Shown here piece after piece: positions 5,136 through 64,000 of a stretch of DNA of 64,000 nucleotides. Within the stretch, counting starts at the first letter, position 1, and every line of letters starts with the position of its first letter. Source of the DNA: Promethearchaeia archaeon (GTDB lineage Archaea; Asgardarchaeota; Lokiarchaeia; Sigyniarchaeales; SOKP01); assembly GCA_029856145.1 (NCBI GenBank), contig JAHQWK010000002.1:1-64000 (forward strand), written 5' to 3'. The notes beneath the pieces are model-generated. The model saw only the letters and a list, made by a program, of their open reading frames with translations, was not told the DNA's origin and searched no databases. The translations under genes and the position numbers were made by a program.

Positions 5136-5138
5136 TTT

Positions 5139-6140
5139 TTATTTTGACACCTCACTTGTTATAGCTTCAGGTCCTACTTCGCTGCGGAAAATATAGTCTC
5201 GATTAATAGCTAATAGAAATAAAATCATCGAAATAATTGACATTGTTAATCCTACAGGATCAATAGTAATAATAGGTTGTGGAGTCTCAATTGCAAAAGC
5301 TATACCGAACAAGATCCATTCAAAAACCATAAAGAAAACAACTAATCCGGGTACTATAGTTCTTAAAATCCGACCTGTCTCTAAATTTCTAGTATCAGAA
5401 AAACTTGTGTAGATTATTGAAAATAACCCGATCATTCCAGATATCAACATAAGAATACTAAATATACCAATTACAAGCCATATTGGATCATTTAAGGTAA
5501 AAAAAGATATCCAAATCCCTGCACCTCTTACATCAAATAAAGTGAAAAACAATGTTGGATCCCCTACGATTGGTCCCATGCCAAGTAAACTCATAAGATC
5601 ACTATATTTCCCGGTAAAAAATCCAAAAATTCCAGCTAAAGGTAAAATTATGCCTAGTGTGAATCCTATAATTGCACACACACTAGCAAACCAGAATTCA
5701 GCTACTTTAGTATTTCTCACTGGAATAAGACCAACTTCATCTACATTTTGATCAGGAATGAAACTCCAACAGTCATGGATAGAGCACACTCCTACAAGTG
5801 TTTCATTCTCTACTACGGGTACCACGTTTACGTTTAAATCACGCATTCTCGTAAATGCGTCAGTAACTGGTGTATCTAAATTCACTGGAGTTATTTTATA
5901 CATTATAGAAATAACTTTTTCAGTTTTAACATCGCGCCCTTCTGCCACAGCATTTTGAACAATATCAAAGTCGGCGATAACTCCAAGAACTTTTTGATTT
6001 TCTCCTTCAACAACTACCAAGTCTGGTACTCCCAATTCTTTCATCTTTTTCGCAGTATCTTGAATCGTTGCTTTAGAATCAATTATCCCATATTCGTCGT
6101 TAATCACTAGATCTCTAACAAAATATTCTTTTAAAGCCAT
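5139..6140 (-). CDS. CBS-domain membrane protein
   Basis: A 333-residue protein with a pair of CBS domains in about residues 1-130 (repeats beginning ATIQDTAKKMKELGVPDLVV and TPVTDAFTRMRDLNVNVVPV) and about four hydrophobic helices in the remaining part (near 155-180, 220-245, 257-285 and 295-315). CBS pairs normally bind adenine nucleotides and control an attached domain, so this may be an energy- or nucleotide-sensing membrane protein. It is the first gene of a two-gene unit with the RGG zinc-ribbon protein. A TATA-like element lies about 58 bases upstream of the start. The exact partner or transported substrate cannot be told from the sequence. Confidence 0.85.
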   Translation of the reverse strand: MALKEYFVRDLVINDEYGIIDSKATIQDTAKKMKELGVPDLVVVEGENQKVLGVIADFDIVQNAVAEGRDVKTEKVISIMYKITPVNLDTPVTDAFTRMRDLNVNVVPVVENETLVGVCSIHDCWSFIPDQNVDEVGLIPVRNTKVAEFWFASVCAIIGFTLGIILPLAGIFGFFTGKYSDLMSLLGMGPIVGDPTLFFTLFDVRGAGIWISFFTLNDPIWLVIGIFSILMLISGMIGLFSIIYTSFSDTRNLETGRILRTIVPGLVVFFMVFEWILFGIAFAIETPQPIITIDPVGLTMSIISMILFLLAINRDYIFRSEVGPEAITSEVSK

Positions 6141-6197
6141 GGATTAAACATCCCATTTATTTTTAGATTAATTTTTATGAGGAATACGCTAAATAAA

Positions 6198-6208
6198 GTA
6201 TATAAATC
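6198..6208 (-). promoter_or_regulatory. TATA box of the CBS/RGG operon
   Basis: Read on the minus strand this is ATTTATATACT, a good archaeal TATA element preceded by a purine-rich stretch that could serve as BRE. The implied transcription start is about 25 bases downstream, leaving a leader of roughly 30-35 bases before the ATG at 6140. Confidence 0.5.
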
Positions 6209-6406
6209 TTTCTGTTAAAAAGCAATACTCTTTTAAGAAAAAGAAAAAGAAAAATCGGACTCTTTATCTTTCATATAATGTAGTTAAAACTTGAATATGT
6301 TAGTTCAATTAAATCAATTTTATTCAAAAGATGTAAAAACTATTCTAATAAATGTTGTAGAATATGGCCTAATTGCTATATTTAGCATGATATATATTAG
6401 ATAGTA

Positions 6407-46925: not shown

Positions 46926-47072
46926 TTATAATTAATATGGTTATAGAGTGTTTCACTAAGTTCAATATAAGCGCTATACTTAATAAAAAATAACCTTAAT
47001 AAGGATATTTTTTTTATAAAAATAGGCAATACATATTAATTGAATAATAGATATCAGAGGAAAAACATTTTT

Positions 47073-47354
47073 ATGGCTAAAGTGAAACTTAACTTATTAA
47101 ATATTTTTCAGCTTAGAATTAATAAAAAATCTATAAACTATGAAGGCAAAACCGTTAGGGATGTAATCTCTCAGTTTTTAAGCGAAAATAGAGAGAAACT
47201 CGATGTTGAATTATTAGATAAAGACAAGAAAAAGTTTAATTCTCATGTACTTATTCTATTAAACGGTAGAAATATAAAATATCTGAAAAACTATAAAACC
47301 AACCTTAAAGATGGAGATGATCTCTACTTATCTTATGCTTTAGCTGGAGGTTAA
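47073..47354 (+). CDS. MoaD/ThiS/Urm1-like ubiquitin-fold protein
   Basis: A 93-residue beta-grasp protein from the ATG at 47073 (a TTG 33 bases upstream is less likely because gaggaaa lies just before this ATG). It begins MAKVKLNLLNIFQLRINKKS and ends in YLSYALAGG, the double glycine that is adenylated and thiocarboxylated for sulfur transfer or conjugation. The middle VLILLNGRNIKYLKN fits the MoaD fold. It may serve molybdopterin or tRNA thiolation, or protein conjugation as Urm1. No partner E1-like gene is adjacent. Confidence 0.85.
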   Translation: MAKVKLNLLNIFQLRINKKSINYEGKTVRDVISQFLSENREKLDVELLDKDKKKFNSHVLILLNGRNIKYLKNYKTNLKDGDDLYLSYALAGG

Positions 47355-47502: not shown

Positions 47503-48438
47503 ATTACAAAAAGAATTTCAGTAATAGGCCTCGATAACGCCGGTAAGACTAGTATTATAACAGTTATTACCAGACGCTTCGGTTTTGAAGATGAGATAGC
47601 TAGATTAACACCAACAAGAAGAATTGCCCGCGATTCATTTAAATTTCTTGGTATTGAATTTACGAGAATGGATTTTGGAGGTCAAAAACAATATAGAGAA
47701 GAGTATTTAAAACATCCAAAAAAATATCTTAGTGGAACAGATTTAATGTTCTATGTTATAGATGCTCAAGATTTTAATCGGTATATAGAATCTATAGATT
47801 ATTTAGAAGAGGTTTTACTTTTTTTCAAGGAAGAACAAGATTATGTTCCAATCTGCATTCTTTTTCATAAGTTCGATCCCCAACTTGTAGATGATGTACA
47901 AATCAATAAAAGAATTCTCACTTTAAAGCAAGCATTAACAAGGTACTCTAATGATTTTGACATATTTTTCTTTGAGACGACAATTTTCGATATAAAATCA
48001 ATTATGGATGCCTTCTCAAGCGGGTTATCCATGTTATTCGAGAAGATGGAAATGGTTTCACAATTATTTTCAGAAATTAGTAAAAACTATAATTCCATTC
48101 TTATAGCATTATTTGATTCTAAGGGGGTAACTCTAGGAGAGTATTATAGGTCTCATCTCCAATTGAAGGAAAAAATAAAGATTTATGAAATTTATTTAGA
48201 ATTACAAAAGCGTGTAGTTGCCGAGAATAGAACCCTTCTTGAGTTTTCAGATAAATTTGAAAGTGGAGAAAGGTTTTCAGGTATAATTGAAGTTCTCCAA
48301 TTCGGAAATCTTGATTTTTATTTATTATTTATTGTCGAAGAAGATAAAGCTGATTTAGAGAAAACAATATCACTTATAGATAGAATTGAATCAGCAAAAC
48401 CTCAAATGAAGAATCTTATTTTACAAATAATTCAATAA
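47503..48438 (+). CDS. Rag/Gtr-like GTPase with C-terminal roadblock-like domain, probable AUU start
   Basis: 311 residues: GLDNAGKTS (G1, 9-17), DFGGQ (G3, 57-61), HKFD (G4, 122-125) and a C-terminal roadblock-like part from about 185 (NYNSILIALFDSKGVTLGEY). It is parallel to the protein at 40004-40969. No ATG, GTG or TTG precedes G1: an in-frame TGA (47494-47496) is followed by TTT TTT ATT ACA. The ATT at 47503 has a ribosome-binding site ggtga (47492-47496) six bases before it, so I infer AUU initiation. The first ATG (47668) would remove G1 and cannot be the start. A sequencing error is the alternative. Confidence 0.75.
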   Translation: MTKRISVIGLDNAGKTSIITVITRRFGFEDEIARLTPTRRIARDSFKFLGIEFTRMDFGGQKQYREEYLKHPKKYLSGTDLMFYVIDAQDFNRYIESIDYLEEVLLFFKEEQDYVPICILFHKFDPQLVDDVQINKRILTLKQALTRYSNDFDIFFFETTIFDIKSIMDAFSSGLSMLFEKMEMVSQLFSEISKNYNSILIALFDSKGVTLGEYYRSHLQLKEKIKIYEIYLELQKRVVAENRTLLEFSDKFESGERFSGIIEVLQFGNLDFYLLFIVEEDKADLEKTISLIDRIESAKPQMKNLILQIIQ

Positions 48439-48451
48439 ATATTAATAAAAG

Positions 48452-48564
48452 CGCAGCTGGAGGGATTCGAACCCCCGAGCGCTTTCGCGCACCGGCTTTC
48501 TTGATTATTTGACCATACCAAATAAGACTCGAAGCCGGCGTCTTACCATCTAGGCTACAGCTGC
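48452..48564 (-). tRNA. tRNA-Ser (anticodon CGA) with an intron
   Basis: A seven-pair acceptor stem (GCAGCTG with CAGCTGC), G73 discriminator, T-arm GGGGG-TTCGAAT-CCCTC, and a long variable arm GCGC-GAAA-GCGC that marks a class II tRNA. The anticodon stem is CCGGC/GCCGG with loop TTCGAG...A, so the anticodon is CGA (serine, UCG codons). A 30-base intron follows position 37 (48498-48527) and contains a perfect seven-pair helix TTATTTG/CAAATAA, as expected for an archaeal bulge-helix-bulge intron. The D-arm has one C-A mismatch. CCA is not encoded. Confidence 0.93.
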
Positions 48565-49930: not shown

Positions 49931-52900
49931 ATGATTAAAATGAATATTTCTAAAAATACTCAAATAAAAGGACTTAGTGTTCTCTTTCTTATTACTATAA
50001 TTCCTTTAATATTCGGATTACTACCAAATTCAAATGTAAATCTAGATAATTCTGTCGAAAGTGGACAAAATCAGGAACCAAAGAATTTACAGCTAGGTTT
50101 ACCACCAACTTCTTATGATTGGTGGAACAATTCGTGGAATTTCCGAGTTCCTGTATCAATTGAAGCAGTAGGGAGCCAACAAGAGGCACCAGTTGAGCTT
50201 TATATAAATTTTACTGAATACTTTGATGATTTAGATATACAAGATTCTGTGTTAAATATATCAACTATCCGTGTAATTGAATATTTCTCAAGTTCCAGTT
50301 ATTATGAAGTCGAGAGTCAATTTGACCCATATTTAAATTCTTATGATAGCCAAACCAATGCAGCAGGAGATTTAATTTGGATATTAAATGGTACAACTCC
50401 AAACGGGCAAATTCGGGATTTTTTTATTTATTTTAACAATGGAACGGATTTTAAGATTACCGATCCAAATTATGACACTATAAGGCTTTGGCATGAAGGT
50501 TTTGAGGATTATCAGTCTGGAGATATTGTAAGACCGATTGATGGACAAGATAATTATCATCCAACTTTCTGGGAAATCAGTAATTCAACTTCAGCAAGAG
50601 GAAGTTCCTCTCTGCGGATTTGGGGAAATTGCTGGAAAATGTCTCCTACAGGTTCAATGCCTGTAAATTCAGACATGAGAGTTACTGCAAAAATGAGATT
50701 TGACGATCCGAGTATTCAAAGAGAAATTTCTGGAATTGGATTCGATAATTCCCCAAATAATATTCCTAGTAGTGCAAATAGTTATAATATACGAGGTTCC
50801 CAATCTTGGGGTGCTGCAGGCGGTTATAAATTTAGAAATCAATATTACGCAGCAAACACCTTTTTCTGGTATACATTCATTCCTAGCACGGAATTTTCTT
50901 TAAGTCCATTTACTCACATCGTTTATGTAGCTGATGATGACAGTTGGACAAGTCTTGATTTGTATTGGGATGATATTTCGATATGGAATAAACCTGTCCA
51001 GACAACTCCAAATAATTCAATTCAAACAACAATGGGAGATATTCAACCAATCGCCTATACATTAAAAGTTATTTGTAAAGATGAAGATAGTAATCGTGTT
51101 TCTAATGCTCACATTTACTTAACCAATAACAATTTTCCTTCATACAACCAAGATCATGAAACTGATGAGAATGGTGAATGGACATTTGAAGGAATAGAAA
51201 AGGATGCATTATATAATATCACAGCTAACTATACGCAAAATGGTCTTACTAATCCAAAAACGGCTACAGTATTTTCTTATGAAAATTATCCAATTACCCA
51301 ATTGAACAATCGGATTATTGCTTATCTTAACTTAGCAAAATTCAACTTTGATATAAAAGATAAAGATAATGATTCGATTCAATATGGTTTTGTTCTACTC
51401 AAAGATGGAACAGAAACTGTAGGAAAAACGGTACTTAGCGATTCTGGGACTGGATCCATTACATGGGTAAATACCACAGCTTATGACTACGAAGCTTACT
51501 ATGATTATGATTCACTTCCAGATATATCAACGTATAGATATTCAAATTTACTGATTCATAATAATTCGATAATATCTAAAGATATTGATGTAAATACTGA
51601 AATTACAAAAACAACTTTTAATGTTACTGATAGTACTGTGGAGAAGGTACCTTTTACTAATGCTAAATTAAGATTTTATAACACATCTGATTATGATATT
51701 GAGCACCAAATAATTGCTAATGTGACAGTTGATATTAATGGATTAGCCACATTCATCTCATTCAGCAACACTTATGGAACTTGGGGAGATTATACAGTAG
51801 ATATCTATTTTGGTGGTTCTGAACAAGACTTTCATGTTGTTGGAGGTCCACCTTTAGTACATGAGCATGATTTCATTTTAAGGACTGAAAACTATACACA
51901 GATTGAAATACCTTTGAATAAGGATCTATATAATTCTACTGTGAATATAATAAGTTATACTTCTAATGTATTTTGGGGAGATGATATTACAATAAACTTC
52001 AATTTTACAGCACAATATCCTCTTGGGCCAACGCCCACATTAGTAGATCCAGATGAACTAACCATACAAATGTATGAAGAACAAATAACTCCTTATGGAG
52101 GAGATGTCGATATTCTAGCTTCGAGGATTTCTACTGGAGTTTTTAGCTATACATTTAATACAGGAGATTTCAACTTAAATGGAGATTCTATTTATTACTT
52201 CAGAATTACTGGAAATTATAAGAGTTATGTATTTATAGCTTTAGATGTAAAATTCATCTTCATTCAGGGATTACCAACTGGGATAACATATTATGACTAT
52301 TCTTTAACAGAGTTAACTGATCAAAGATTTTCAGTAATATTTGGCGAATCTGTCAACATAACTGTTGATTATTTTAATAGCTATACCAATGCTTCTTTAG
52401 ATGGAGCTTATATTACATACGATTGGGATTATGGTTCTGGAATCCTCCTTGATGATCCATTACACGCGGACCTATATTATTTTGAATTTGATTCTTCAAC
52501 AACACCCAATAGCGCTGAATATATAATCGATATTGAAGCAACACTTACAAATTTTAGCACTATTGATGACTCAATTATTGTCGCAATCCAACCTAGACCC
52601 ACCACTATTAATGGAACAGCTACTCTCTTTCAAAAGTCACCCAATATCTATGTTTTTGACTCCGTTAACTATTTATTTGAATATAAAGATGCCCTACGAG
52701 ATATTACACTCGGAAATTTAGATGTTATTAGATATTATTGGAATAGGTTAGATGAAAATGGAGATCCTCTTAGTGGCTCTGGAAACGAAGGAAGCGGATT
52801 TTTGAGCAGTGGACCAAATAATTTGTATATTCTAGATTTCGATACAGAACTGAGAGAAGTTGGAGAATATTCTTTATTTGTTACAATGCAAAAAAATAAT

Positions 52901-53605
52901 TATGATGTCAGAAATGCCATTATATTATTAACAATCAGCAAGAGACCGATAACTATGGATTTGAGTGCTACAGGATTATCTGGTAATAGAGTAAATATTG
53001 TTCAGGGGAGATTGATTAATTTTAGTATTATTCTCACTGATGAGACTGATGGAATCCAATCATTAACTGGAGCAAATGTAACATTATGGCTCAATGGAAA
53101 TGATATTTCAGTGGATGAAGTTCTTGGTTCACCTGGGACATATGAATTAATCTTCCCTACTGGCAATATAAATGCCTTCTTTATGCCTCAAACATTAACA
53201 GGTCAAATCACAGTGGAATTAGAAAATTACGAGATAGCTCCAAGATCTATTACAGTTGTAGTAGGAATGACAGAAATTTTCCCTGGATTTCCAATGTTTT
53301 ATTTCTTGCTAATAGTAGGGGCAGTAGTAGCAGTAGCGGGTAGTTTAGCCGCATATCGCATGATTCAAAGAGCTCGAATCCCTACATTTGTGAAAAAAGT
53401 AAGGCAGATGAAAAGTATTATCAAATCCAAAAAGACAATTTCAGATTCGCTTCTATATCCTTCAAAAGAGGAATATATCATAAAGAATTTAAGAGATAAA
53501 TGGGATCAACTTGGATTATCATTAGAAGATATTTTAGGTTTGGAAGAAAAGAAGAAGAAGAGTTTGCCAGAATTTACAGGAGAATATAAAACAGGTGAAG
53601 AATAA
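49931..53605 (+). CDS. Giant surface protein (DUF2341-like), receptor-like
   Basis: 1224 residues. The N terminus has a signal peptide (LSVLFLITIIPLIFGLLPNS). The region after it opens with WWNNSWNFRVPVSIEAVG and is DUF2341-like, followed by many beta-sandwich units, including a carboxypeptidase-regulatory-like unit (NAHIYLTNNNFPSYNQD ... DENGEWTFEGIE) and four or more Ig-like repeats with many Asn-X-Ser/Thr sites. A membrane helix lies at about 1120-1142 (FPMFYFLLIVGAVVAVAGSL), followed by a basic cytosolic tail of about 82 residues with RIPTFVKKVRQMKSIIKSKK. The stop overlaps the start of the next gene (TAATG). ATG 49931 or 49940 may be the true start. A receptor or adhesin role is inferred. 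Confidence 0.85.
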   Translation: MIKMNISKNTQIKGLSVLFLITIIPLIFGLLPNSNVNLDNSVESGQNQEPKNLQLGLPPTSYDWWNNSWNFRVPVSIEAVGSQQEAPVELYINFTEYFDDLDIQDSVLNISTIRVIEYFSSSSYYEVESQFDPYLNSYDSQTNAAGDLIWILNGTTPNGQIRDFFIYFNNGTDFKITDPNYDTIRLWHEGFEDYQSGDIVRPIDGQDNYHPTFWEISNSTSARGSSSLRIWGNCWKMSPTGSMPVNSDMRVTAKMRFDDPSIQREISGIGFDNSPNNIPSSANSYNIRGSQSWGAAGGYKFRNQYYAANTFFWYTFIPSTEFSLSPFTHIVYVADDDSWTSLDLYWDDISIWNKPVQTTPNNSIQTTMGDIQPIAYTLKVICKDEDSNRVSNAHIYLTNNNFPSYNQDHETDENGEWTFEGIEKDALYNITANYTQNGLTNPKTATVFSYENYPITQLNNRIIAYLNLAKFNFDIKDKDNDSIQYGFVLLKDGTETVGKTVLSDSGTGSITWVNTTAYDYEAYYDYDSLPDISTYRYSNLLIHNNSIISKDIDVNTEITKTTFNVTDSTVEKVPFTNAKLRFYNTSDYDIEHQIIANVTVDINGLATFISFSNTYGTWGDYTVDIYFGGSEQDFHVVGGPPLVHEHDFILRTENYTQIEIPLNKDLYNSTVNIISYTSNVFWGDDITINFNFTAQYPLGPTPTLVDPDELTIQMYEEQITPYGGDVDILASRISTGVFSYTFNTGDFNLNGDSIYYFRITGNYKSYVFIALDVKFIFIQGLPTGITYYDYSLTELTDQRFSVIFGESVNITVDYFNSYTNASLDGAYITYDWDYGSGILLDDPLHADLYYFEFDSSTTPNSAEYIIDIEATLTNFSTIDDSIIVAIQPRPTTINGTATLFQKSPNIYVFDSVNYLFEYKDALRDITLGNLDVIRYYWNRLDENGDPLSGSGNEGSGFLSSGPNNLYILDFDTELREVGEYSLFVTMQKNNYDVRNAIILLTISKRPITMDLSATGLSGNRVNIVQGRLINFSIILTDETDGIQSLTGANVTLWLNGNDISVDEVLGSPGTYELIFPTGNINAFFMPQTLTGQITVELENYEIAPRSITVVVGMTEIFPGFPMFYFLLIVGAVVAVAGSLAAYRMIQRARIPTFVKKVRQMKSIIKSKKTISDSLLYPSKEEYIIKNLRDKWDQLGLSLEDILGLEEKKKKSLPEFTGEYKTGEE

Positions 53606-54708
53606 TGCCAATTGGATTAGTTGTAATGAGATGGAATGAGAGAGTGGGTACTGAATTACTGAACAAGTATCCTGAAGAAATGGAAATAACAGATAAGACA
53701 CTTATGCAAATATATAGTACTCATGAATACAGTGGAGAATCTGGGTTGGTTAGTTTAATGATTGGATCCTTAAACATTGCTTCTTACTACACAGGCCCAG
53801 AAAATGAATACTATGTAATTCTCCTATTAAATATTGATGAAGATCCAGATTCTTATGAAGAAGGTTTAATAGACGTTTCTCGAATTATTATACAAAATTT
53901 AGATGGCGATGCTTATTTTAAAATGATACCTTCTATTTTTCAAAGATTATCTGTGTATCCTACCCTTAATATTGAACAGAAACTTGCATTCACATATTAC
54001 GATAAGGTTAAACGGATGATTATTAACCGTTTAAGGGAAGATGGTGCTGTATCTAAATCAGAGATTACAATCTGGTTAAAGGATCAGTATAAACAAGGTT
54101 TTCTCAATATAAACGCAGATATAATGGAATTAATTAAACGTGATATAATTAAACAAGTATCTGTAAAAGGAGTTCCTTCAGAATTAATATTTCTGATAAA
54201 CGACATCGTATGTATGCGTGTTCCACCCGTGAAATTAGTGAAAGATCCGTTAGATCGCGGTTTACCTTCTAGACTAGTAGAAAATTATAAAACAGAAGTT
54301 AAAAAATTCTTTCTAGACTATAATCCTACAGAGGCAGATAACTTAAGGGTATTAGATGTTCTTACTAATCCTCAAGCTTATGAAACTCTACGTTTATTAA
54401 GAACTGCAATTGTAACGAGGAATGATCTAGAAAAGCTAAGAAAGAAGGGTATAGACGATCTCGATAATATATTAAAAATGCTTTGGGAAACTCAAATTGT
54501 GCAAATCTTTCGGGATGAAAACGAAAATGAATATTATGCACTTCTTTCTGATTTTTATTTAGATCTGATATTCCCCAAGTATCTAATGAATGTTATAAAA
54601 ATGAATTATATCAAGAAATCAAAAGCCGAACCAGTTCTGATAGAATATCTCACTATACTTGAAGATAGTTATATTAATAGAAAAGCAACAAGAAAATCTA
54701 AAACATAA
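53605..54708 (+). CDS. Cytosolic partner with longin/roadblock-like and winged-helix domains (copy 1)
   Basis: A 367-residue soluble protein. Residues 1-115 (starting MPIGLVVMRWNERVGTELL) read as an alpha/beta sensor of roadblock/longin type. Residues about 125-205 form a winged helix (LREDGAVSKSEITIWLKDQY), and about 245-325 a second one (LRLLRTAIVTRNDLEKLRKK). The ATG overlaps the stop of the receptor-like gene by one base (TAATG), so the two are translationally coupled and likely act together, with the partner probably meeting the receptor's cytosolic tail. A second copy is at 59753-60865. No catalytic motif is seen. I do not know a named family. Confidence 0.75.
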   Translation: MPIGLVVMRWNERVGTELLNKYPEEMEITDKTLMQIYSTHEYSGESGLVSLMIGSLNIASYYTGPENEYYVILLLNIDEDPDSYEEGLIDVSRIIIQNLDGDAYFKMIPSIFQRLSVYPTLNIEQKLAFTYYDKVKRMIINRLREDGAVSKSEITIWLKDQYKQGFLNINADIMELIKRDIIKQVSVKGVPSELIFLINDIVCMRVPPVKLVKDPLDRGLPSRLVENYKTEVKKFFLDYNPTEADNLRVLDVLTNPQAYETLRLLRTAIVTRNDLEKLRKKGIDDLDNILKMLWETQIVQIFRDENENEYYALLSDFYLDLIFPKYLMNVIKMNYIKKSKAEPVLIEYLTILEDSYINRKATRKSKT

Positions 54709-54748
54709 AAATTTTTTTCTATTTTTTTATTTTTTTATTTTTTATTCT

Positions 54749-55200
54749 TTAGAGCTTTTAAATCTTAGAAAAAAGGATGCTTAAATTTTAAATGCCGGTA
54801 CTGGTCCAGAATTTACTGCTATTTATCTAAATGAAATAGGATATAAAATTGTGGCTATTGATATTATTTCAGAATTCTTAAATTATTATAATATAAAAGG
54901 GTTAAATCCTATTGCCTCAGTTATGTGTTTTCCTCCTTTTAAATCAAATATTTTTAATATTATTATCCCTATCTCTGCTTTACAATGGATTTATAGAGAT
55001 ATTAAATATGAAAAAATGCACTTTTTGTTAAAAAGTCTGTCTAAATCTATTATTCAGATTTAAAATCATTCTCTCAAGTGATAATTCAATTTTATCCCTA
55101 GAATAAGGAAATATTGGAAAAAATCGGTAAAATTTTTACAGAAAACACTGCTTTTTATGGAAATTTTATAATAGATAATCCAAATAGACCGAAAAAGTGA
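54749..55200 (+). pseudogene. Decayed Bud23-like methyltransferase copy
   Basis: A degraded relative of the gene at 49150. The first third is missing. An in-frame TAA (54782-54784) lies just before motif I, which reads LNAGTGPEF in place of LDAGTGPGF. After IIPISALQWIYRD the frame breaks and a stop occurs at 55061-55063. Later QFYP is followed by TAG (55099-55101). The rest of the C terminus (KIGKIFTENTAFYGNFIIDN) is still readable. Several independent lesions show that it is not expressed as protein. It marks the border between the two duplicated units. Confidence 0.92.
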
Positions 55201-55379
55201 ATGATTTAACTTTTACTAAAAAAGAAGACATAATTTGAGAGTTAGACTTGATATTTTATATAGAACTCTTTTCTATTTTGTATATTAGAACTTATTTATT
55301 TACATAATATTTTATTTAACTTCTCCCATGATATTGTTAAAAATTATATCTAAAAATTTCAAATTAGAATGATGATTTT

Positions 55380-58300
55380 ATGACAATACAAAATAAACAT
55401 AAATATCGATTAAAACAAGCATCATTACTGTTGATAATACTTTTTTTAAGCCTTTTTCCAACATATTTAGCAAATTTTTCTAATTTTACAAACGATATTG
55501 AGAATAACAAGAGTACTGAAACTTTTAATATAGAAAACCTAAATCCTAGTGTTTTAGGTAATGATACTTGGTGGGATACTGATTTTGCTAATCGCCGATT
55601 AATCATTATTACAAATCCTTATGATGCTAAATTTACTGATTTTGGAGTAAGTGCGACGTTTAATTATGCAGAATTGGGTAGTTTAATTCAATCTGATCTA
55701 GATGATATAAGAATCGTAGAGAATGGTGTTTTACGAAAATATTACGTTGTTAAAGATTACCCCTCAACAAATTTAGCTACTGTATGGTTTGACACTAATG
55801 CATCACAATCTACAACTGAAAGAGACACCTATCTTTATTTTGGAAACAGTTTAGCTGGAAATACTGAAGCTAGTACTATGATAGATAGTTTTGGTTGGGT
55901 TAAAAATGGGGATTTTGAATTAGATAATAGTACTGATCAATATTTTGATCCTTATGGATGGACTTTTTCTCATGATCAAGTTGATCAAATTAAAGATATA
56001 AGTGATGCAAGGGAAGCTTCAAATTATTCATTGGACAGCTATATTAATTTTGAAAATAATCTAGTCCATATAGATGATCTTTCTACATCGGCTGAAAGAG
56101 TAGAATCGGGATATTATGCTTATAAGTGGGGAGCTCAGGGTTCCTTGCTCCCTCAAGTAGCATGTAAAGATTATGTAGGAACGTTTTATTCTTATCCCTT
56201 TAAAGTTCCAATAATAGAAGGAGGAGAAATTAGTTTAAATCTTTATCGCAATGTAAGAACCTGGTTTTTCGAAGACCCAGATTCTTCTCTCCCTACAATT
56301 TCTGAAGATGGCTATTTTCTAAGGATGTGTAATGGATCAGATTCAAAATATACAGCTGATGTCGATTTGCATGAAAATATTGGAAGCGGTTATGATAGCT
56401 GGTTGGAAACATATGGAGGATTTGCTTATATTTCACCAAATAAGAAAACATTGAGATATCATGATGAATTAAAGGAACATTTTGAATTAGACCCTGAAAT
56501 ATATACTAGATCAGACACGAGTTCAGATGGAGATTTGACTGGTTCTTTAGAGATTGATGTTACTGATTATATGGGTGAAGAAATATTCATAGAATTTGGC
56601 ACTTGGGGTCCAGAAGATGGCGATGTTCAAACGATAAAATCAGGATTCTTTCAAGTAGATGACGTAAGGTTTAATTACACATTATCAGCAGAAGTTCAAG
56701 AATTACAAGCGCAAGTATCATCAATAGATGTAATTGTAAAAGATATTGATGGAAGGAGTGTTCCTACAGCAGATATAATGATCATTGACAATTCTTATAC
56801 GAAAGGATCACCAAATTATAACGTTGCAAACGGAACAACTATTAACGGGAGAATTACTTTCAGTAATATACCTATTGGTTATTATAATATTACTGCGAAT
56901 TATACGTTAGGTTCTCAGAAAACTGAGGTGTTCAATAGTATTAAATCGGGTATAGGTCCATATTATTTTAACGGAATAAATTATACTGTTAATATCCAAC
57001 TGGATATATGGACTATTGATTTTGAAATAGTAGATTGGGATGGTATTCCATTGAAATATAGTTATATTGAGATTAATGAAAGTCAAGGAGGACCTTTATT
57101 AGATACATTAACACTTGATGATACTGGAAAAGCAACTTTTCGATGGTTAAACAGCTCGAGTTATTATTATAAAGTTTACTATAATAATGACGATTATGGT
57201 AGCAATTTCAGCCCCGTTCCTTTAAATGAAAGTTACATATATCGAAGTGATTATATTCAGGACAATGTGAAATTTAGACATCATACTATAAATGTGAATG
57301 AAACTAGTATAGGGAGCTATTCAGTAAGTGAGCGTTTCTATACAGATGGGTCGCGAACTACATTAGGGAATAAAAAAATAATTGAAGCTAGTATTACTCT
57401 GACGGATATGGAAAATTACATGACAGATATTTCTATTTATTATATAGATAAGGATGACTTAATAGTAGGAAATCGTATTTATTATAAGGAATATATTAGT
57501 TCTAATGTTACAGATGATTTGATTGAACTTGATATTTCTCATATAAATAATGATCATTTAAAAAGTGATAATTATGAAGTATATGGATTATTAGTTGAGG
57601 TTAATGGGTTTAATGCTACACTATGCAATGGTATCGTTAAAGTTGATTTAGTTGAAACTTGTAATGTTTATACAGAAACCCCAATAGCTCGATTAAATAT
57701 TCGATTAACGTACTTTAGCGATATAGATAAAGAATATAAACCATTAAGCGGAACTATTAAAGTGATTGATAATGCTACTGGACAGCCTTTAGTAAACCTT
57801 TCGGCATTTTCAAGTAGGGATGGATACGCCTATGCTCCAAAAAATTCTTATGAAACCCCCTTTTGGTATTTAATCGGGAGGGTATATAATTTTTCAATAG
57901 ATGTTCCTGATAATCCAAATGTGGATTTTAATATTACATATATCGATCCACCGCAATGGATACCCGCACCTGGAGAAAAAATTAAGGAATACAACTATAC
58001 ACTTTATAAAAACTCAACAATCACTTTTAATGTAATACCAGAAACAGTTGTAAATTTTACACAATATGATACATCGTTCAATATGTCTTATAGTACAAGT
58101 GAAGTATTATGGGGAGAAAACATGAATTTCTGGGCAGAATTTTTATTTACCAACGACAACTGGCAAACCTCAGATTATGTCTCAAAACCTCCTGGTAGCT
58201 GCATTTTAACAATAAGATTAGCAGGCTCAGAAGAGATCTTGAGAACCGTAGAGATGGATTATCTTAGTAATGGTAATTATACATTAATCTTTAATTCTGG

Positions 58301-59753
58301 ATTGATTTCAGCTGGAAATGATAGGGAATATTATGATGTTGAAATAAACGGATATCACCCGATATATGACAATCCAACTCCGCTAGTTTATTTAGTAAAA
58401 GTAATAGCAAAACCAACGACAATGAGCGCGCACGATTATGATTCACTTGCGGTAATACCCTCTAAAACATACTTAGTATATTATGACGAACTCATAAATA
58501 TAACAGTTAGATATTCAGAAACTGAATTTGGAACTTCTTTAACTAATGCTCTTCTAAGTTATGAATGGATCGGTCTCAATCCGATTAGTTTCTTTTCTGA
58601 TCCTTTAAATAGTGATTATTATACATTTACAATTAATACGGCAGATGCGCAGAGTACCGGTTTAAAAATAATTAGTATAACAGCCTCTTTTGAAAATTAC
58701 ACTACACAATCAGACTTCTTAGTTTATCTTAATATACTTGATAGAAAAACGACTCTTAATGACCAATCTGAGGACTTATATTACATTAGTTCAAGGGTAT
58801 ATGTCCAAGATCAGAGAAACTTCATTTTCACGTACCAAGACGCCGATACATTTGATATAATTGGGGATTTAGCTATTTCTAATTATGTTTGGGAAGAATT
58901 ATATGATAATGGAACAAAAGTTCCTGGTAGCTTTGGTTCAGGAACTTTAACTCAAAATTTAAACCATAGCTATACTTTAGATTTTAACACGGAATTAAAA
59001 CCAGTTGGATACTATTTCTTGTATGTTACCTTAAAACAAGACAATTATGAACAGAAAAATGCCTTTATTTATTTGGAAATAATGCTGAGAGAATTTTCAG
59101 TTACAATCCAAGAACCTCAGTTAGGGAGTAACAATCAAATTGTTATAGCTCAAGGTAGTGATATTGATTTTGAGATCCACTTATGGGATGATACTAGAGG
59201 AGAAGAACTGCAAAATGCGATTGTTAAATTTAATTTTAGAGGTACAACTTATATATTGGATCCAATTCCAACTGAACCAGGTGCTTACAACACATCAGCA
59301 TTAACCAGAGATATTGATACATTCTTTATGGCACAGACTTTTGTAGGGAAAATTTACATTGAAGCCGCTAATTTTACTAGCCAAGAATTCACAATCACTA
59401 TTACAGTGAAAATGCAGGAGATATGGCCCGGAATGCCAACCTTTTACTTCATTATAATAACAGCCGCGATTGTTGGTGTTGTAGGAAGCGTAGTTGGATA
59501 TAGAGTTATCCAACAAGCAAGAATACCCAAGCATGTTAAAAAGATCAGAAAGGTTAAAGGCTTGATAAAATCCAAAAAGAAAATCACTGAATCATTTTCG
59601 GTATCAACTAAAGAACTAATGATGGTAAAAATATTTGGAGATGATTGGAAGGAAATTGGGCTCTCAATCGAAGAAGCATTAGGAATAGCCGACCTAAAAA
59701 AGAAATCTTCATTAAAAGATAAAATAACAACGGAAAGAGGTGAAAACGAGTAA
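55380..59753 (+). CDS. Giant surface protein (DUF2341-like), copy 2
   Basis: 1457 residues. A signal peptide (ASLLLIILFLSLFPTYLANF) is followed by a DUF2341-like domain starting WWDTDFANRRLIIITNPYDA. Next is a beta-rich part with a concanavalin-like look (about 170-430), then repeated Ig-like and carboxypeptidase-regulatory-like units (DIDGRSVPTADIMIIDNSYT) with many glycosylation-type sequons. A membrane helix lies at about 1353-1375 (PTFYFIIITAAIVGVVGSVV), followed by a basic tail with RIPKHVKKIRKVKGLIKSKK. The tail clearly resembles that of copy 1, whereas the outer domains differ much more. The stop overlaps the next ATG (TAATG). Confidence 0.85.
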   Translation: MTIQNKHKYRLKQASLLLIILFLSLFPTYLANFSNFTNDIENNKSTETFNIENLNPSVLGNDTWWDTDFANRRLIIITNPYDAKFTDFGVSATFNYAELGSLIQSDLDDIRIVENGVLRKYYVVKDYPSTNLATVWFDTNASQSTTERDTYLYFGNSLAGNTEASTMIDSFGWVKNGDFELDNSTDQYFDPYGWTFSHDQVDQIKDISDAREASNYSLDSYINFENNLVHIDDLSTSAERVESGYYAYKWGAQGSLLPQVACKDYVGTFYSYPFKVPIIEGGEISLNLYRNVRTWFFEDPDSSLPTISEDGYFLRMCNGSDSKYTADVDLHENIGSGYDSWLETYGGFAYISPNKKTLRYHDELKEHFELDPEIYTRSDTSSDGDLTGSLEIDVTDYMGEEIFIEFGTWGPEDGDVQTIKSGFFQVDDVRFNYTLSAEVQELQAQVSSIDVIVKDIDGRSVPTADIMIIDNSYTKGSPNYNVANGTTINGRITFSNIPIGYYNITANYTLGSQKTEVFNSIKSGIGPYYFNGINYTVNIQLDIWTIDFEIVDWDGIPLKYSYIEINESQGGPLLDTLTLDDTGKATFRWLNSSSYYYKVYYNNDDYGSNFSPVPLNESYIYRSDYIQDNVKFRHHTINVNETSIGSYSVSERFYTDGSRTTLGNKKIIEASITLTDMENYMTDISIYYIDKDDLIVGNRIYYKEYISSNVTDDLIELDISHINNDHLKSDNYEVYGLLVEVNGFNATLCNGIVKVDLVETCNVYTETPIARLNIRLTYFSDIDKEYKPLSGTIKVIDNATGQPLVNLSAFSSRDGYAYAPKNSYETPFWYLIGRVYNFSIDVPDNPNVDFNITYIDPPQWIPAPGEKIKEYNYTLYKNSTITFNVIPETVVNFTQYDTSFNMSYSTSEVLWGENMNFWAEFLFTNDNWQTSDYVSKPPGSCILTIRLAGSEEILRTVEMDYLSNGNYTLIFNSGLISAGNDREYYDVEINGYHPIYDNPTPLVYLVKVIAKPTTMSAHDYDSLAVIPSKTYLVYYDELINITVRYSETEFGTSLTNALLSYEWIGLNPISFFSDPLNSDYYTFTINTADAQSTGLKIISITASFENYTTQSDFLVYLNILDRKTTLNDQSEDLYYISSRVYVQDQRNFIFTYQDADTFDIIGDLAISNYVWEELYDNGTKVPGSFGSGTLTQNLNHSYTLDFNTELKPVGYYFLYVTLKQDNYEQKNAFIYLEIMLREFSVTIQEPQLGSNNQIVIAQGSDIDFEIHLWDDTRGEELQNAIVKFNFRGTTYILDPIPTEPGAYNTSALTRDIDTFFMAQTFVGKIYIEAANFTSQEFTITITVKMQEIWPGMPTFYFIIITAAIVGVVGSVVGYRVIQQARIPKHVKKIRKVKGLIKSKKKITESFSVSTKELMMVKIFGDDWKEIGLSIEEALGIADLKKKSSLKDKITTERGENE

Positions 59754-60865
59754 TGCCTATAGGATTAGTCATAATGAGGTGGGATATAAAAGTAAGTACA
59801 GAAATCCTTGCTAAATATCCTGAGGAACTTATTATTAGTGATGAGACTTTAATGCAAATCTATGCAGCACATGAATATACAGGAGAACCAGGCATGATAA
59901 GTTTATTAGTTGGACCTTTAAATATCGCTTCATATTACACAGGACGAGAAAAACCACTTTATATCATCTTACTGTTGAATTTAGATGAAGATGCTGATAC
60001 CTATGAAGGAGGTTTATCAGACATTTCACGGGTAATATTCCAAAATTATGAAGATAATGCCTATCTGGAGATGATTCCGTTTCTATTCCAACGTTTATCT
60101 ATATATCCTCATTTGAATGAAGAACAAAGTTTAGCCGTCACCTTTTCAGATAATGTAAATCGATTGATAATAGAGAGATTAAGAGAAGAGGGGGTTATTA
60201 CTAAATCAGAATTAAAGATATGGTTAAAAGATAGATATAGAGAGGGCTTTTTTGATGTTGATGCAATTTTAATGGAATTAATTAAAAAAGAAATAGTAAA
60301 AGAAACATCAGTAAAAGGAATGCCTTCTGAATTAATCTTTCTTATTAACGATCTTTTCATGATAAGAAGACCTCCAATTAAACTACTCAAAAATCCTGTA
60401 GAACGTGGACTTCCGGAGAGATTTCTCGAGGAATACAATGTTGCAGTAAGAAAATTCTTCCAAAAGTATCGTCCCTCAGAAGAAGATAATATTAAAATTT
60501 TAGATGAAGTTATTGGAGACCCCCAAGTCTATGAAATTCTGAAACTTCTAAGAATTTCAATTGTTACTAAAAATGTATTGGAGAAACTCCGTAAAAAAGG
60601 TGTCGATGATATAGATGGAGGCTTAAAGAAATTATGGGAAAATCAAATGATTCATGTATTTCAAGATAGTAAAGGAAATGAGTACTATGCTTTAATTTCT
60701 GACTTTCATAATTCAATAGTTTATCCTAAATACATGTTAAATACGATTATTTATCAATATAGAGTAAAATCAAAATCAAATAGTGTTTTGATCGAATATC
60801 TAAATGTTCTTGATGATAATTATCGATCTATAAAATTTAAAGCTGAAGTACAGGAAGAAGAATAA
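59753..60865 (+). CDS. Cytosolic partner with longin/roadblock-like and winged-helix domains (copy 2)
   Basis: A 370-residue paralogue of the protein at 53605. The same three parts align over the full length: the sensor domain (MPIGLVIMRWDIKVSTEILA), first winged helix (LREEGVITKSELKIWLKDRY) and second winged helix (LRISIVTKNVLEKLRKKGVD). It is strongly conserved compared with the neighbouring surface proteins, which suggests that its interface is under constraint. The ATG overlaps the receptor stop. The longin-GTPase gene at 60933 lies just beyond and converges on it (67-base gap). Confidence 0.75.
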   Translation: MPIGLVIMRWDIKVSTEILAKYPEELIISDETLMQIYAAHEYTGEPGMISLLVGPLNIASYYTGREKPLYIILLLNLDEDADTYEGGLSDISRVIFQNYEDNAYLEMIPFLFQRLSIYPHLNEEQSLAVTFSDNVNRLIIERLREEGVITKSELKIWLKDRYREGFFDVDAILMELIKKEIVKETSVKGMPSELIFLINDLFMIRRPPIKLLKNPVERGLPERFLEEYNVAVRKFFQKYRPSEEDNIKILDEVIGDPQVYEILKLLRISIVTKNVLEKLRKKGVDDIDGGLKKLWENQMIHVFQDSKGNEYYALISDFHNSIVYPKYMLNTIIYQYRVKSKSNSVLIEYLNVLDDNYRSIKFKAEVQEEE

Positions 60866-60932
60866 AATTTAATACTTTTTTTTATATTTTTATCAATATT
60901 TTTTTTAAATAAAATAATTATAATAATTTCTA

Positions 60933-61970
60933 TTAATTAGTTAAATAACCTTTCAATTTATTTGCTTTTTCATGAAATTCCTTATAGAGATTATCGTCCC
61001 CTAATTCAAGGCATAAATCAGAAATTTTTTCAAAATACTCAGCGGTTTGGGCAATATCTCCATTTTCTAAACTAAGTTTTGCTTGATGGATTAGTTGATC
61101 TCTTTCGAATAAAGGTTTTAATAACGGTGAGGCATCAGTACTAACCTCTAGGATATCTGCTATAATTTGAATCATCTTTTCTCGATTATCCGGTTCAATT
61201 GCAACCATTGAATATGTTTTCAAACCAAGTATTTCTTCAATTTTTTGCACATTTAAGGCATCAGTTAAATCTTGTTTGTTCCCTATTATAGCAGTGTGGG
61301 CATGGGGGGCATGTTCCTTTACTAATTCAATAAAAAATTTACTTTTTTCTACATTTTCCAATGTAGAGTCTGTAATGATAAGAACAGCATCACTACCAAG
61401 AATAAACTCATTCCATAGGTAGCTAAATTGTTCTTGTCCAGCAAAATCCCATAAGTGAAAATATAATTTTCCAATTTTAATAGTTGAAATTTTTCCTGTA
61501 ATAGTAGGAATATGTACGGATGGGATCTCAGTAGCACATATTAGTTTCGTAGTAGTTGTTTTTCCAACACCTGAAAATCCTACTAAAGAAATCTTTGTCT
61601 TAAGATTTCTATGAATGGAATCTATTATTGGATCAAGTAATTCCATAAGAGATGTATCTAAATTATCTAAAGCATCACCAAATGTATCTAAAAATTCGCT
61701 TTGAAGATTTGCTAGTTCGCGTTTAGTTCGTGAGAGTTCGTCATTAATATCAGTTATAAACATAAACGTTAATTTTAAATCCTCTTCTAATGCAAAAACT
61801 AATTTGTATTTAATATAATCATAGCTGTTAAGTTCTATCCCTGTACCTTTTGTAGATACTTCGATTATCTCCTGATAAAGTTTATTAAAATCCTCCTCAT
61901 ATATTCCTTTGCCGAAGTTCTTATTGTATATTATTTTTTCATCCTTTAAAATATAAACTTGCCTTAACAT
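60933..61970 (-). CDS. Longin-GTPase-TPR-like fusion protein
   Basis: A 345-residue protein in three parts. Residues 1-100 begin MLRQVYILKDEKIIYNKNFG and read as a longin-type domain. Residues 126-280 are a Ras/Arf-type GTPase with GFSGVGKTT (131-139), DFAGQE (175-180) and GNKQDL (230-235); G5 is SMVAI in place of the usual SAK. Residues about 285-345 form a TPR-like helical hairpin (AKLSLENGDIAQTAEYFEKI). The order longin then GTPase recalls the signal-recognition-particle receptor alpha family, but here the GTPase is of the small Ras/Arf kind. It sits next to the receptor-partner genes and may be part of that system. Confidence 0.8.
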   Translation of the reverse strand: MLRQVYILKDEKIIYNKNFGKGIYEEDFNKLYQEIIEVSTKGTGIELNSYDYIKYKLVFALEEDLKLTFMFITDINDELSRTKRELANLQSEFLDTFGDALDNLDTSLMELLDPIIDSIHRNLKTKISLVGFSGVGKTTTTKLICATEIPSVHIPTITGKISTIKIGKLYFHLWDFAGQEQFSYLWNEFILGSDAVLIITDSTLENVEKSKFFIELVKEHAPHAHTAIIGNKQDLTDALNVQKIEEILGLKTYSMVAIEPDNREKMIQIIADILEVSTDASPLLKPLFERDQLIHQAKLSLENGDIAQTAEYFEKISDLCLELGDDNLYKEFHEKANKLKGYLTN

Positions 61971-62501
61971 ATTTCCCCGTCTAATTCTTATAAAATTTTA
62001 AAAATAAAGAAGTCAATTTATCTTTTTTTAAAGTTACAAATATAACTTTACTATTTTTCTTTGATTCTACAATCTAAATTTAAATATTTAAATTTTGAGA
62101 AATTGAAAAATATGAAAGGCATAAGATAGAATTATTGAAATTATATTTAAACTCAAAAAAAAGAAATAGATGAATGGTTGCATTATTTACATGCATTTTA
62201 CAACTGGGTATATCATTTCATGGCAAAATTTTGATTTTATTTCCATTTATTCTAATAAAATCTTATTTGAAAAAAGAATCGTTTAAGTGTTAACAAACTT
62301 TTCGAAAATAAATCATTTATTTCAAATTATGTACACTCTAACTTATGTCTTAAAAATTTGTTGTAAAACTATCAAGAATATATCGTGGTGTTACTCATAA
62401 ATAAAAAGTTAAATAGGAAAATTTGTATAATAAATGATAAAAAACTCTTTTTTTAAAAAATTTAAAATAAAAACAATCTAATAAATAAATTGATAATAAA
62501 C
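61971..62501. other. AT-rich gap between the longin-GTPase and the third surface protein
   Basis: About 530 bases. I see no gene, no further methyltransferase remnant and no strong hairpin. It presumably holds two divergent promoters; several TATA-like tracts are present but none stands out. Confidence 0.5.
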
Positions 62502-64000
62502 ATGAATAGACTAAATAGAAAAACAAAAAAGGTAATTTCTGTAACCTTTTTATTGATTCTTTCATTGAGCTCGGTTTTAATTATGTTTCCATCAAATGTT
62601 TCGAATTCAGTAGATTTTAATGAAAAAACAGAAGAAGACAGAGAATCTAATCTTATCCGTCCATTATTAAATGCACCAATAGGAGAAGATCCTTGGTGGA
62701 ACGTATCATATCAGTGGCGACAATGTATAAATATTACTAATCCTGGAACTTATAATTTAACTGATAATTTCATGAGCATTCAGTTTGATTATGCTACACT
62801 ACGAGATAACTATAATATGGATCCTAATTTGTACGACGTCAGAATAGTAGAAAATAATGTAGTAAGAAATTATTATGTAAAGAAGGACTTTCCTAGAGTC
62901 GATTATGCAACCATCTGGTTCGAAACTAATTCTACCGCTGGTGAATCTGAATATGACACATTTATGTATTGGGGAAATGCCTCTATTAACTATCGTGGGA
63001 GTAAGCATGTTGATTTTGACCCATCTGGAACAGCGTGGTGGAGTTTTGAAGAAGGTACTGGAGTTCAAGACTCCGCTGTAGAAGATTCATTGGGTCTTGC
63101 TGATGGTCATCTCTATGGGACTGGGGGTAATTATCCTGTTTATGATTCAGATAGTGCCGTAGGTTCTTATTCTCTTGAATTTGTTGGGAATAATGATTTT
63201 GTTTATATAAATGATTCATTGCATTTTACAGAACCAAACGAAATTTCTGCGGTGACTGTCAGTCTTTGGTTTAAAACCTCCGCCAATATAGGTGACTGGA
63301 CACAAAATTGGGCTTTTTTCGATTTTGATAGATCTGAGTATTTTAACTTCTTTATAAGACCAGATGACGGAACATTAGGTTTTTGCAGTGCAGCTTCAGG
63401 ATATAGTGGTCAGAATGATTTTTATAGTAGTACTACAGGTTTGAATGATGGAGCGTGGCACTTTGCTTGCATAGTATATGATGGTTCTGACAAAATTATT
63501 TATGTTGATGAGGGTGTAGAAGATGCAAGATGGGTAAATGCAATGGGTGGACGAGCTTTCGGAACAGGAACTGATAGATGGGGCTTTTTTGGTGATGGTT
63601 CAGAGGCAACAGGAGTAAATGGTGGGAGAAACAATAGGTATTACGAAGGAAATATGGATGAAATTAGGTACTTTGAGTATGCAGTTGCACCAGATGAAAT
63701 TCAATGGTTGGCAAATTATTATTCTGTTGATATAGATCTATTACCAGTTACAGAACGAGCAGCTGCAGTGACTGTTTTAGTAAAAGATATTGATGACCGA
63801 TTAGTTCCTGGAGCTGAAGTCTCTTTATGGAAAAATTCTACACATATCTTAGAAGTAGATGGAACTCCCTATACAGAATATACTTTACTTGATGGCACTG
63901 TGTCTTTTACAAAAGTTCCATTCGGATTTTACTACATTAGTGTAAATTATACTCTAAATTCAGGATTGTATGAAGAAGTAGTATATGATAGCAGAATTCA
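62502..64000 (+). CDS. Giant surface protein, copy 3 (partial, runs off the window)
   Basis: An open frame from ATG 62502 to the window end, about 499 codons with no stop. It has a signal peptide (VISVTFLLILSLSSVLIMFP), a DUF2341-like domain starting DPWWNVSYQWRQCINITNPG, then a LamG/concanavalin-like domain (about 167-410: GTAWWSFEEGTGVQDSA, the middle LNDGAWHFACIVYDG and end YYEGNMDEIRYFEYAVAPDE). A carboxypeptidase-regulatory-like unit (VLVKDIDDRLVPGAEVSLWK) starts near residue 425. It resembles copies 1 and 2 in the first and last of these parts, so it is a third member of the family. Whether a partner gene follows cannot be seen. Confidence 0.85.
   Translation, partial: MNRLNRKTKKVISVTFLLILSLSSVLIMFPSNVSNSVDFNEKTEEDRESNLIRPLLNAPIGEDPWWNVSYQWRQCINITNPGTYNLTDNFMSIQFDYATLRDNYNMDPNLYDVRIVENNVVRNYYVKKDFPRVDYATIWFETNSTAGESEYDTFMYWGNASINYRGSKHVDFDPSGTAWWSFEEGTGVQDSAVEDSLGLADGHLYGTGGNYPVYDSDSAVGSYSLEFVGNNDFVYINDSLHFTEPNEISAVTVSLWFKTSANIGDWTQNWAFFDFDRSEYFNFFIRPDDGTLGFCSAASGYSGQNDFYSSTTGLNDGAWHFACIVYDGSDKIIYVDEGVEDARWVNAMGGRAFGTGTDRWGFFGDGSEATGVNGGRNNRYYEGNMDEIRYFEYAVAPDEIQWLANYYSVDIDLLPVTERAAAVTVLVKDIDDRLVPGAEVSLWKNSTHILEVDGTPYTEYTLLDGTVSFTKVPFGFYYISVNYTLNSGLYEEVVYDSRI

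Follow-up and report, generated by a model that had tools for sequence, protein, structure and literature searches.

The stretch of DNA analysed here (hereafter the window) comprises 64,000 nucleotides of a Promethearchaeia archaeon of the order Sigyniarchaeales (assembly GCA_029856145.1, 3.55 Mb in 32 contigs; contig JAHQWK010000002.1, positions 1 to 64,000) and contains, on the plus strand, two complete pairs of a large surface protein (the receptor) and a soluble cytosolic protein (the partner), together with a third receptor. The first receptor, R1 (49931..53605, 1224 amino acids, aa), has a signal peptide, a beta-rich ectodomain (with a weak CarboxypepD_reg-like stretch), one membrane helix (~53300-53359) and a conserved basic cytosolic tail, IPTFVKKVRQMKSIIKSKKTI...LGLSLEDILG, the helix and tail together spanning 53300..53605 (tail profile A8). 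Its stop codon overlaps the start of the partner P1 in the sequence TAATG (53603..53607), and P1 (53605..54708, 367 aa), which we modelled with AlphaFold2 and compared by Foldseek, is predicted to consist of a longin domain (~53605-53955), two winged helices (~53971-54222 and ~54331-54570) and C-terminal helices. The second pair repeats this architecture, with R2 (55380..59753, 1457 aa, membrane helix and tail at 59445..59753, and sub-threshold matches to DUF2341 and CarboxypepD_reg), a TAATG overlap at 59751..59755 and P2 (59753..60865, 370 aa, 58% identical to P1). On the minus strand lies a gene for a longin-Arf GTPase (60933..61970, 345 aa), in which an AP-sigma/mu-like longin (~61596-61970) precedes an Arf/Rag-type GTPase domain, and back on the plus strand the N-terminal part of R3 starts with TTG at 62490 and runs past the window end (62490..64000). 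In the genome R3 is complete, with 1288 aa and a LamG/concanavalin-like domain, and is joined by TAATG to a third partner outside the window, P3 (G000:C2:66356-67472, 371 aa). Signal peptides and single membrane helices were called from hydropathy alone. An earlier note on this DNA had placed all these window genes correctly, including the overlap at both window junctions and the third receptor.

The coupling of receptor and partner genes extends well beyond the window. Considering the unfused partner genes in loci from the same order (the relatives being draft genomes), the gap to the gene of a transmembrane (TM) surface protein is -1 in 20 cases, 0 in nine and +1 to +3 in three (32/34), so that 29/34 have a gap of -1 or 0, while other same-strand neighbour pairs in the partner loci have gaps of -1 in 1/125 and of 0 in 3/125 cases. 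The two uncoupled exceptions are a partner whose receptor is absent (L060:8183-9286) and a truncated copy in L055. In the former locus (L060:6800-9286), the receptor-less partner directly follows the methyltransferase gene which in the window is found ahead of R1. Moreover, receptor and partner also occur as in-frame fusions, in which signal peptide, ectodomain, membrane helix, tail and partner make up a single polypeptide, 2,087-2,669 aa long when the open reading frame is complete (complete in L043, L044, L045, L046 and L124; partial in L047, L048, L049 and L051). The fused copies form one clade (Shimodaira-Hasegawa-like approximate likelihood ratio test support of 99), nested inside the pair type, and the fusion therefore most likely arose once and was later multiplied; several independent origins are rejected on account of this monophyly. 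Genes for roadblock-Ras-like GTPases (~327 aa) recur beside the fused genes (L044:2122-5338, L045:2697-3677, L046:14721-15707, L048:77-1060 and L051:384-1370) and, in four loci, a conserved 286-aa protein is encoded between this GTPase and the fused gene.

The receptors have in common a tail of ~60 residues just inside the membrane, formed by an invariant proline in column 28 and a basic stretch (IP.FVKK.R.MKK.IK..K.I) followed by KE...W..LGLS..DILG. The mean net charge of the basic stretch (+6.8) contrasts with the acidic character of the partner family (isoelectric point, pI, of 4.5-6.4 in all 93 members, median 5.05). When the home genome was searched with the tail profile, all matches (7/7) were found to flank partner genes: five strong matches immediately precede full-length partners (on contig 3, two such matches stand in tandem before a fourth partner), and the two weak matches (E 0.01-0.03) adjoin a fifth, diverged partner on contig 29. 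Among 228 Asgard genomes (thresholds of E<=1e-4 for the tail and E<=1e-5 for the partner), 154 have both tail and partner, eight have the partner only, none has the tail only and 66 have neither; counted by family labels, 17 have both, two the partner only and nine neither (the last figure from label numbers), with p 8e-6 for families that are not independent. In 42 genomes, mostly outside the home family, 43/135 tails have a partner at a distance of 8 kb or less, where 2.0 would be expected. The profile used is alignment-based and partly trained on partner-linked tails, and the set includes some training loci, but many of the genomes with hits, such as G183, G184, G186, G188, G189, G194 and G222, had no part in the training. 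Additionally, the divergence of tails and partners is strongly correlated over 32 loci (Mantel r 0.90, reached in 0/2000 permutations), although linkage alone can give such a correlation. Finally, tail-bearing surface proteins are often more numerous than partners in distant lineages, which suggests that one partner serves several receptors there.

It could be argued that all this merely reflects the co-transcription of unrelated genes in compact genomes, with no physical or functional tie between their products, and indeed about one quarter of the same-strand neighbours in the partner loci (33/125) are 20 bases apart or less. Such hitch-hiking seems to us extremely improbable, given that the -1/0 junctions are far above this background, that there is a fusion clade, that tail and partner co-occur across genomes and diverge together, and that the tail motif is limited to the neighbours of partners in the home genome. 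The module formed by receptor and partner is thus well supported, and the earlier note, which had taken the two as a unit, is upheld by the conserved TAATG/TAAATG junction, the single fusion clade, the conserved tail and the phylum-wide co-occurrence.

Two further forms of tail-bearing genes were observed. A second, diverged form of the module is present in the same genome (L009:10216-16503 and L223:6332-13452), with a partner, a pair of tailed surface proteins and a TrmB-like coiled-coil protein (650-733 aa). The surface-protein genes of L223 are divergent from that of the partner, and L050, from another genome, has a similar set. In addition, G083:C5 1332198-1334087 and G083:C11 425981-427894 show two tail matches lying inside or beside one another, in frames of the same reported length, possibly genes with a double unit of membrane helix and tail.

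The way in which the tail may meet the partner was approached through a natural fusion. The AlphaFold2 model of the L045 chain (tail-partner fusion at 4820-6253, minus strand) from membrane helix through tail and linker to partner (62 alignment rows, mostly tail-only or partner-only) has a predicted template modelling score (pTM) of 0.85 over 478 residues, about that of the partner alone, whereas we estimate that ~0.7 would be expected if tail and helix were randomly placed against the partner. The predicted local distance difference test (pLDDT) is 92-98 in the tail blocks, as in the core, and falls below 50 in the linker, at the place where unfused genes have their stop and start codons. The tail-partner complex that the earlier note had proposed to model is hence supported by this single-chain model, but not proved by it.

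The partner itself is the most conserved element of the pair. Among the three paralogues, identity is 58-69% for the partners, 44-62% for the membrane helix with tail, 36-42% for the membrane-proximal ectodomain and 26-34% for the N-terminal half of the ectodomain, in agreement with the earlier claim that the partner is better conserved than the ectodomain (58-69% versus 26-42%). The P1 model (93-sequence alignment) has a pLDDT of 92.4 and a pTM of 0.86. Its residues 4-116 follow the strand-helix order bb-a-bbb-a-a of longins (strands 4-11, 15-22, 47-53, 56-62 and 69-75; helices 30-43, 81-97 and 104-116; pLDDT ~90), and Foldseek matches the longins of Ykt6, Vamp7 and Sec22b with a probability of ~1.0. 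The N-terminal domain had been called longin/roadblock-like, and only the first term holds: a roadblock/LC7 fold (a-bb-a-bbb-a) is ruled out, as the model opens with a pair of strands in place of the N-terminal helix of that fold and has two helices at its end. The two winged helices, also claimed before, are found in the model at residues 123-206 and 243-322. In two separate models, the top Foldseek matches are GATOR1/SEA subunits (8fw5, 9o5d, 9v0j, 9h4q, 8adl and 7t3a), with E values against these solved structures mostly of 4e-4 to 5e-3; from their size (363-406 modelled residues) we take the chains matched to be NPRL2/NPRL3 and their yeast counterparts. Further matches include Fuzzy-Inturned, DENND10, BLOC-3 and longin SNAREs.

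At the sequence level the partners stand apart from described families. Pfam and NCBIfam gave no family above cut-off for them, PF06218 (the Pfam NPR2 family) had no match in the home genome at E<=1, and a sequence search of the PDB with the partner profiles returned generic winged helices only, with the longin part unmatched and no GATOR1 chain. A scan with a closer alignment set (A4) gave 71 loci, all of them from Lokiarchaeota/Lokiarchaeia, although the peptide patterns of this set are of Loki type and uninformative on distant non-Asgard homologues. A stand-alone longin of 125 aa that is close kin of the partner N-terminal domain is encoded at L010:11135-11509, and short versions like it are also present elsewhere among the Asgard genomes.

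The two winged helices could also mean that the partner is a membrane-tethered transcription regulator which binds DNA and is sequestered or activated by the receptor, in the manner of ToxR/CadC-type one-component receptors or of CodY, where a sensor domain is combined with a winged helix-turn-helix (wHTH). In line with this, distant members of the partner family match the ArsR/HTH_20, TrmB and TFIIE-alpha wHTH models of Pfam, and CodY is among the weaker Foldseek matches. We nevertheless consider it quite unlikely that the partner acts on transcription, as 93/93 members are acidic and the recognition helices are acidic at their start (mean net charge of -1.5 and -1.1 over the first seven residues), which weakens the case for DNA binding as judged from sequence. 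Moreover, longin/wHTH proteins of the NPRL2/3 type regulate GTPases and not transcription, and a link to a longin-Arf GTPase would be unexpected for a transcription factor.

This link was examined starting from the window GTPase, which matches the Pfam Arf family (4.1e-19) and has intact GFSGVGKT, DFAGQ and NKQD motifs. The family profile of its N-terminal domain matches AP-2 sigma (E 6.6e-6), AP-3 sigma, AP-2 mu, Vamp7 and MglB, and by these profile matches the domain is a sigma/mu-like longin, so that the longin-GTPase described earlier as adjoining the pair is confirmed. Since the home genome has 86 Arf-family matches and 22 matches to the longin of this GTPase, the two genes could well be neighbours by chance at a single locus. 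Of the partners outside the order, however, 21/53 have a longin-Arf GTPase gene within 1 kb, against 1/248 control genes (p 6e-17, relatedness ignored), and chance adjacency is therefore excluded there; GTPases other than the longin-Arf type are not enriched near these partners. The Asgard survey that had been suggested for this linkage was accordingly positive. In several loci the longin-Arf GTPase gene and the partner gene overlap, by 3-18 bases, and L099 (4088-9780) has an operon of receptor, partner and longin-GTPase (gaps of about -4 and 7). Within the order, the window shares its arrangement of pair and longin-GTPase with L052 and L055, and the fused genes have longin-GTPase or roadblock-GTPase genes at their flanks. 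The earlier note had held that a wide occurrence of partners without surface-protein genes would speak against it; within the order this was not found (32/34 are coupled), but outside it the partner often has no adjacent surface-protein gene, and the longin-Arf GTPase takes the place of constant neighbour. The genomes with such receptor-less partner loci encode tail-bearing surface proteins elsewhere.

A separate cluster combining GTPases with sensors was seen at L012:5075-14769. It encodes a response regulator and two multi-PAS/GAF histidine kinases, along with a longin-coiled-coil protein and two GTPases, one of them of Gtr type. The Gtr-type GTPase has an N-terminal longin of the partner's kind, and the cluster is a possible link from a two-component system to a GTPase.

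Taking these observations together, the best explanation is, in our opinion, a receptor-tethered longin/winged-helix adaptor module that controls a longin-Arf GTPase, and we regard it as reasonably probable. In this mechanism, a surface receptor or contact-sensing adhesin, with its large ectodomain, one membrane helix and short basic tail, would keep the soluble adaptor (longin and double winged helix) permanently docked under the membrane, a step that is well supported, although not proved, and the overlapping genes would allow the receptor and adaptor chains to be made together. The adaptor longin would then act as a platform for the longin-Arf GTPase, as in eukaryotic longin-domain GTPase regulators; we infer this client from the linkage and from the roles of longins in GATOR1, C9orf72-SMCR8, Mon1-Ccz1 and TRAPP. 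By linkage only, the GTPase-borne longin is a candidate for the mate of the partner in a longin-longin heterodimer. Binding of a ligand or of a partner cell outside would finally alter the recruitment or the nucleotide state of the GTPase inside. As the ectodomains of the receptors carry LamG, DUF2341-like, CarboxypepD-reg and Ig-like pieces, the ligand may reasonably be guessed to be a glycan or a cell contact. We do not call the partner a GTPase-activating protein (GAP) of the NPRL2 kind, because it has no conserved longin arginine, nor a transcription factor, because its recognition helices are acidic.

The same ectodomains are adhesin- or lectin-like (LamG, DUF2341, Ig-like), and they would also suit a structural anchor or adhesion linker without signalling, in which the partner fastens adhesins to a scaffold inside the cell or takes part in sorting them during trafficking, and the GTPase governs membrane delivery only. 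Such a role would fit the longin and AP-sigma folds, which are characteristic of trafficking and of cargo adaptors, and the excess of tailed surface proteins over partners in distant lineages resembles that of cargo over adaptor. Within the order, however, the dedicated partner of each receptor and the single fused clade point to a stable complex more than to an adaptor that binds its cargo transiently, and we hold the purely structural role to be unlikely.

Several results weigh against the GTPase-controlling module that we favour. Within the order, a longin-GTPase gene is found within 1 kb in 7/54 pairs only (p 0.018), and the partner longin and the GTPase longin barely align in hhalign (probability of 6.5%). 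The phyletic p-values ignore shared ancestry, and the docking of the tail rests on the pLDDT and pTM of a single-chain model. The full-length Foldseek TM-scores against GATOR1 are low (0.16-0.25), which indicates that the domains match better than their arrangement and that the arrangement differs from that of GATOR1. Furthermore, no invariant longin arginine was found among the 93 members, the highest frequencies being 0.51 (position 13) and 0.57 (position 114), and an arginine-finger GAP as in NPRL2 or SMCR8 is not supported by these unconserved longin arginines. As a whole, the interpretation given in the earlier note is partly supported.

In a wider and more tentative proposal, which we hold to fall somewhat short of probable, these proteins would be an Asgard-wide receptor class whose shared tail holds an adaptor controlling a longin-Arf GTPase, a pre-eukaryotic pathway with an adaptor resembling the ancestral plan of NPRL2/3- and DENN-type proteins and in which, in Lokiarchaeia, a shared hub gave way to dedicated pairs and then to a single-chain receptor. 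Asgard genomes are rich in eukaryote-like small GTPases, whose inputs and whose matching to regulators are an open problem for which gene order was said to be unhelpful (PMC10933270). Here, gene overlap, fusion and phylum-wide co-occurrence tie together an ectodomain, a longin/winged-helix protein and a longin-Arf GTPase, so that specific tail-partner-GTPase triples become testable. If the proposal is true, receptor-linked longin control of GTPases predates eukaryotes, and the module gives a molecular way into the question of how syntrophic Lokiarchaea could use their abundant surface proteins to relay contact to the inside. A receptor-longin system in Asgard archaea was not found in the literature (open-licence papers), and neither the coupling to surface receptors nor the tail, the fusions or the linkage of partner and longin-GTPase genes seems to have been described before. 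The folds are all known, and the system is new as far as the literature and family databases searched can tell; if it were proved to be plain GTPase regulation, it would be fairer to call it a kind of longin regulator.

Other genes in the neighbourhood of the pairs deserve mention. A Gtr1/RagA-type GTPase (47509-48438, plus strand; Pfam Gtr1_RagA 3e-15) lies 1.5 kb upstream of R1, and its start codon is probably upstream of the listed ATG at 47668, because the GTPase domain begins earlier. A transfer RNA gene at 48452-48564 (minus strand; Rfam 42 bits, missed by ARAGORN) is 113 bases long against a model of 71 positions, which suggests an intron. A protein of 104 aa (47040-47354, plus strand) ends in GG and resembles, by eye, the MoaD/ubiquitin-like fold, and three leucine-rich repeat proteins with a common N-terminal region are encoded downstream of P3, outside the window (L008:8939-18470).

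Among known systems, the likeness to plexins and to the yeast Wsc1/Mtl2-Rho1 sensors is by analogy only: in these a surface ectodomain feeds a small GTPase, but they are eukaryotic and built of unrelated domains. The MglA-MglB(-RomR/RomX) polarity system of Myxococcus shares with the module a prokaryotic small GTPase under a partner of the roadblock/longin superfamily, but it has no receptor coupling and no winged helices, and its partner is a roadblock and not a longin protein. Closer in fold are C9orf72-SMCR8, FLCN-FNIP, DENN, Mon1-Ccz1, BLOC-3, Fuzzy-Inturned and TRAPP, longin platforms, often heterodimers, that act as GAPs or guanine nucleotide exchange factors of Arf, Rab or Rag GTPases, and three of this group (Fuzzy-Inturned, BLOC-3 and DENND10) appear in the fold search of the partner; their GTPase, however, carries no longin. 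To our knowledge, single-pass surface receptors are neither fused nor coupled to any protein of these complexes.

The nearest likeness in plan is that of NPRL2 and NPRL3, from the Rag/Gtr1 GAP complex GATOR1/SEACIT, which are longin GTPase regulators of similar length with an N-terminal longin followed by tandem winged helices, the plan described for Npr2/Npr3 (PMC3521125; for the longin, also PMC8534245). NPRL2 uses Arg78 of its longin loop as a catalytic arginine finger (PMC8534245). The partner differs from them in having two wHTH domains and not three, in lacking a sequence-level match and in being tied to a surface receptor and a longin-Arf GTPase neighbour in place of the Rags and DEPDC5. 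An 'NPRL2-like longin domain' class has been listed among the expanded eukaryotic signature proteins of Lokiarchaea (PMC9834061), and it may overlap the N-terminus of the partner. Finally, the window longin-Arf GTPase has the architecture described for the longin-GTPase and roadblock-GTPase fusions of Asgard archaea (Tran et al. 2024, PMC10933270). In MK-D1, GTPase genes were reported to be generally outside operons with longin or roadblock genes, and regulators remained unmatched from gene order (PMC10933270), whereas the partner/longin-GTPase linkage described here offers a match of regulator and GTPase by gene order.

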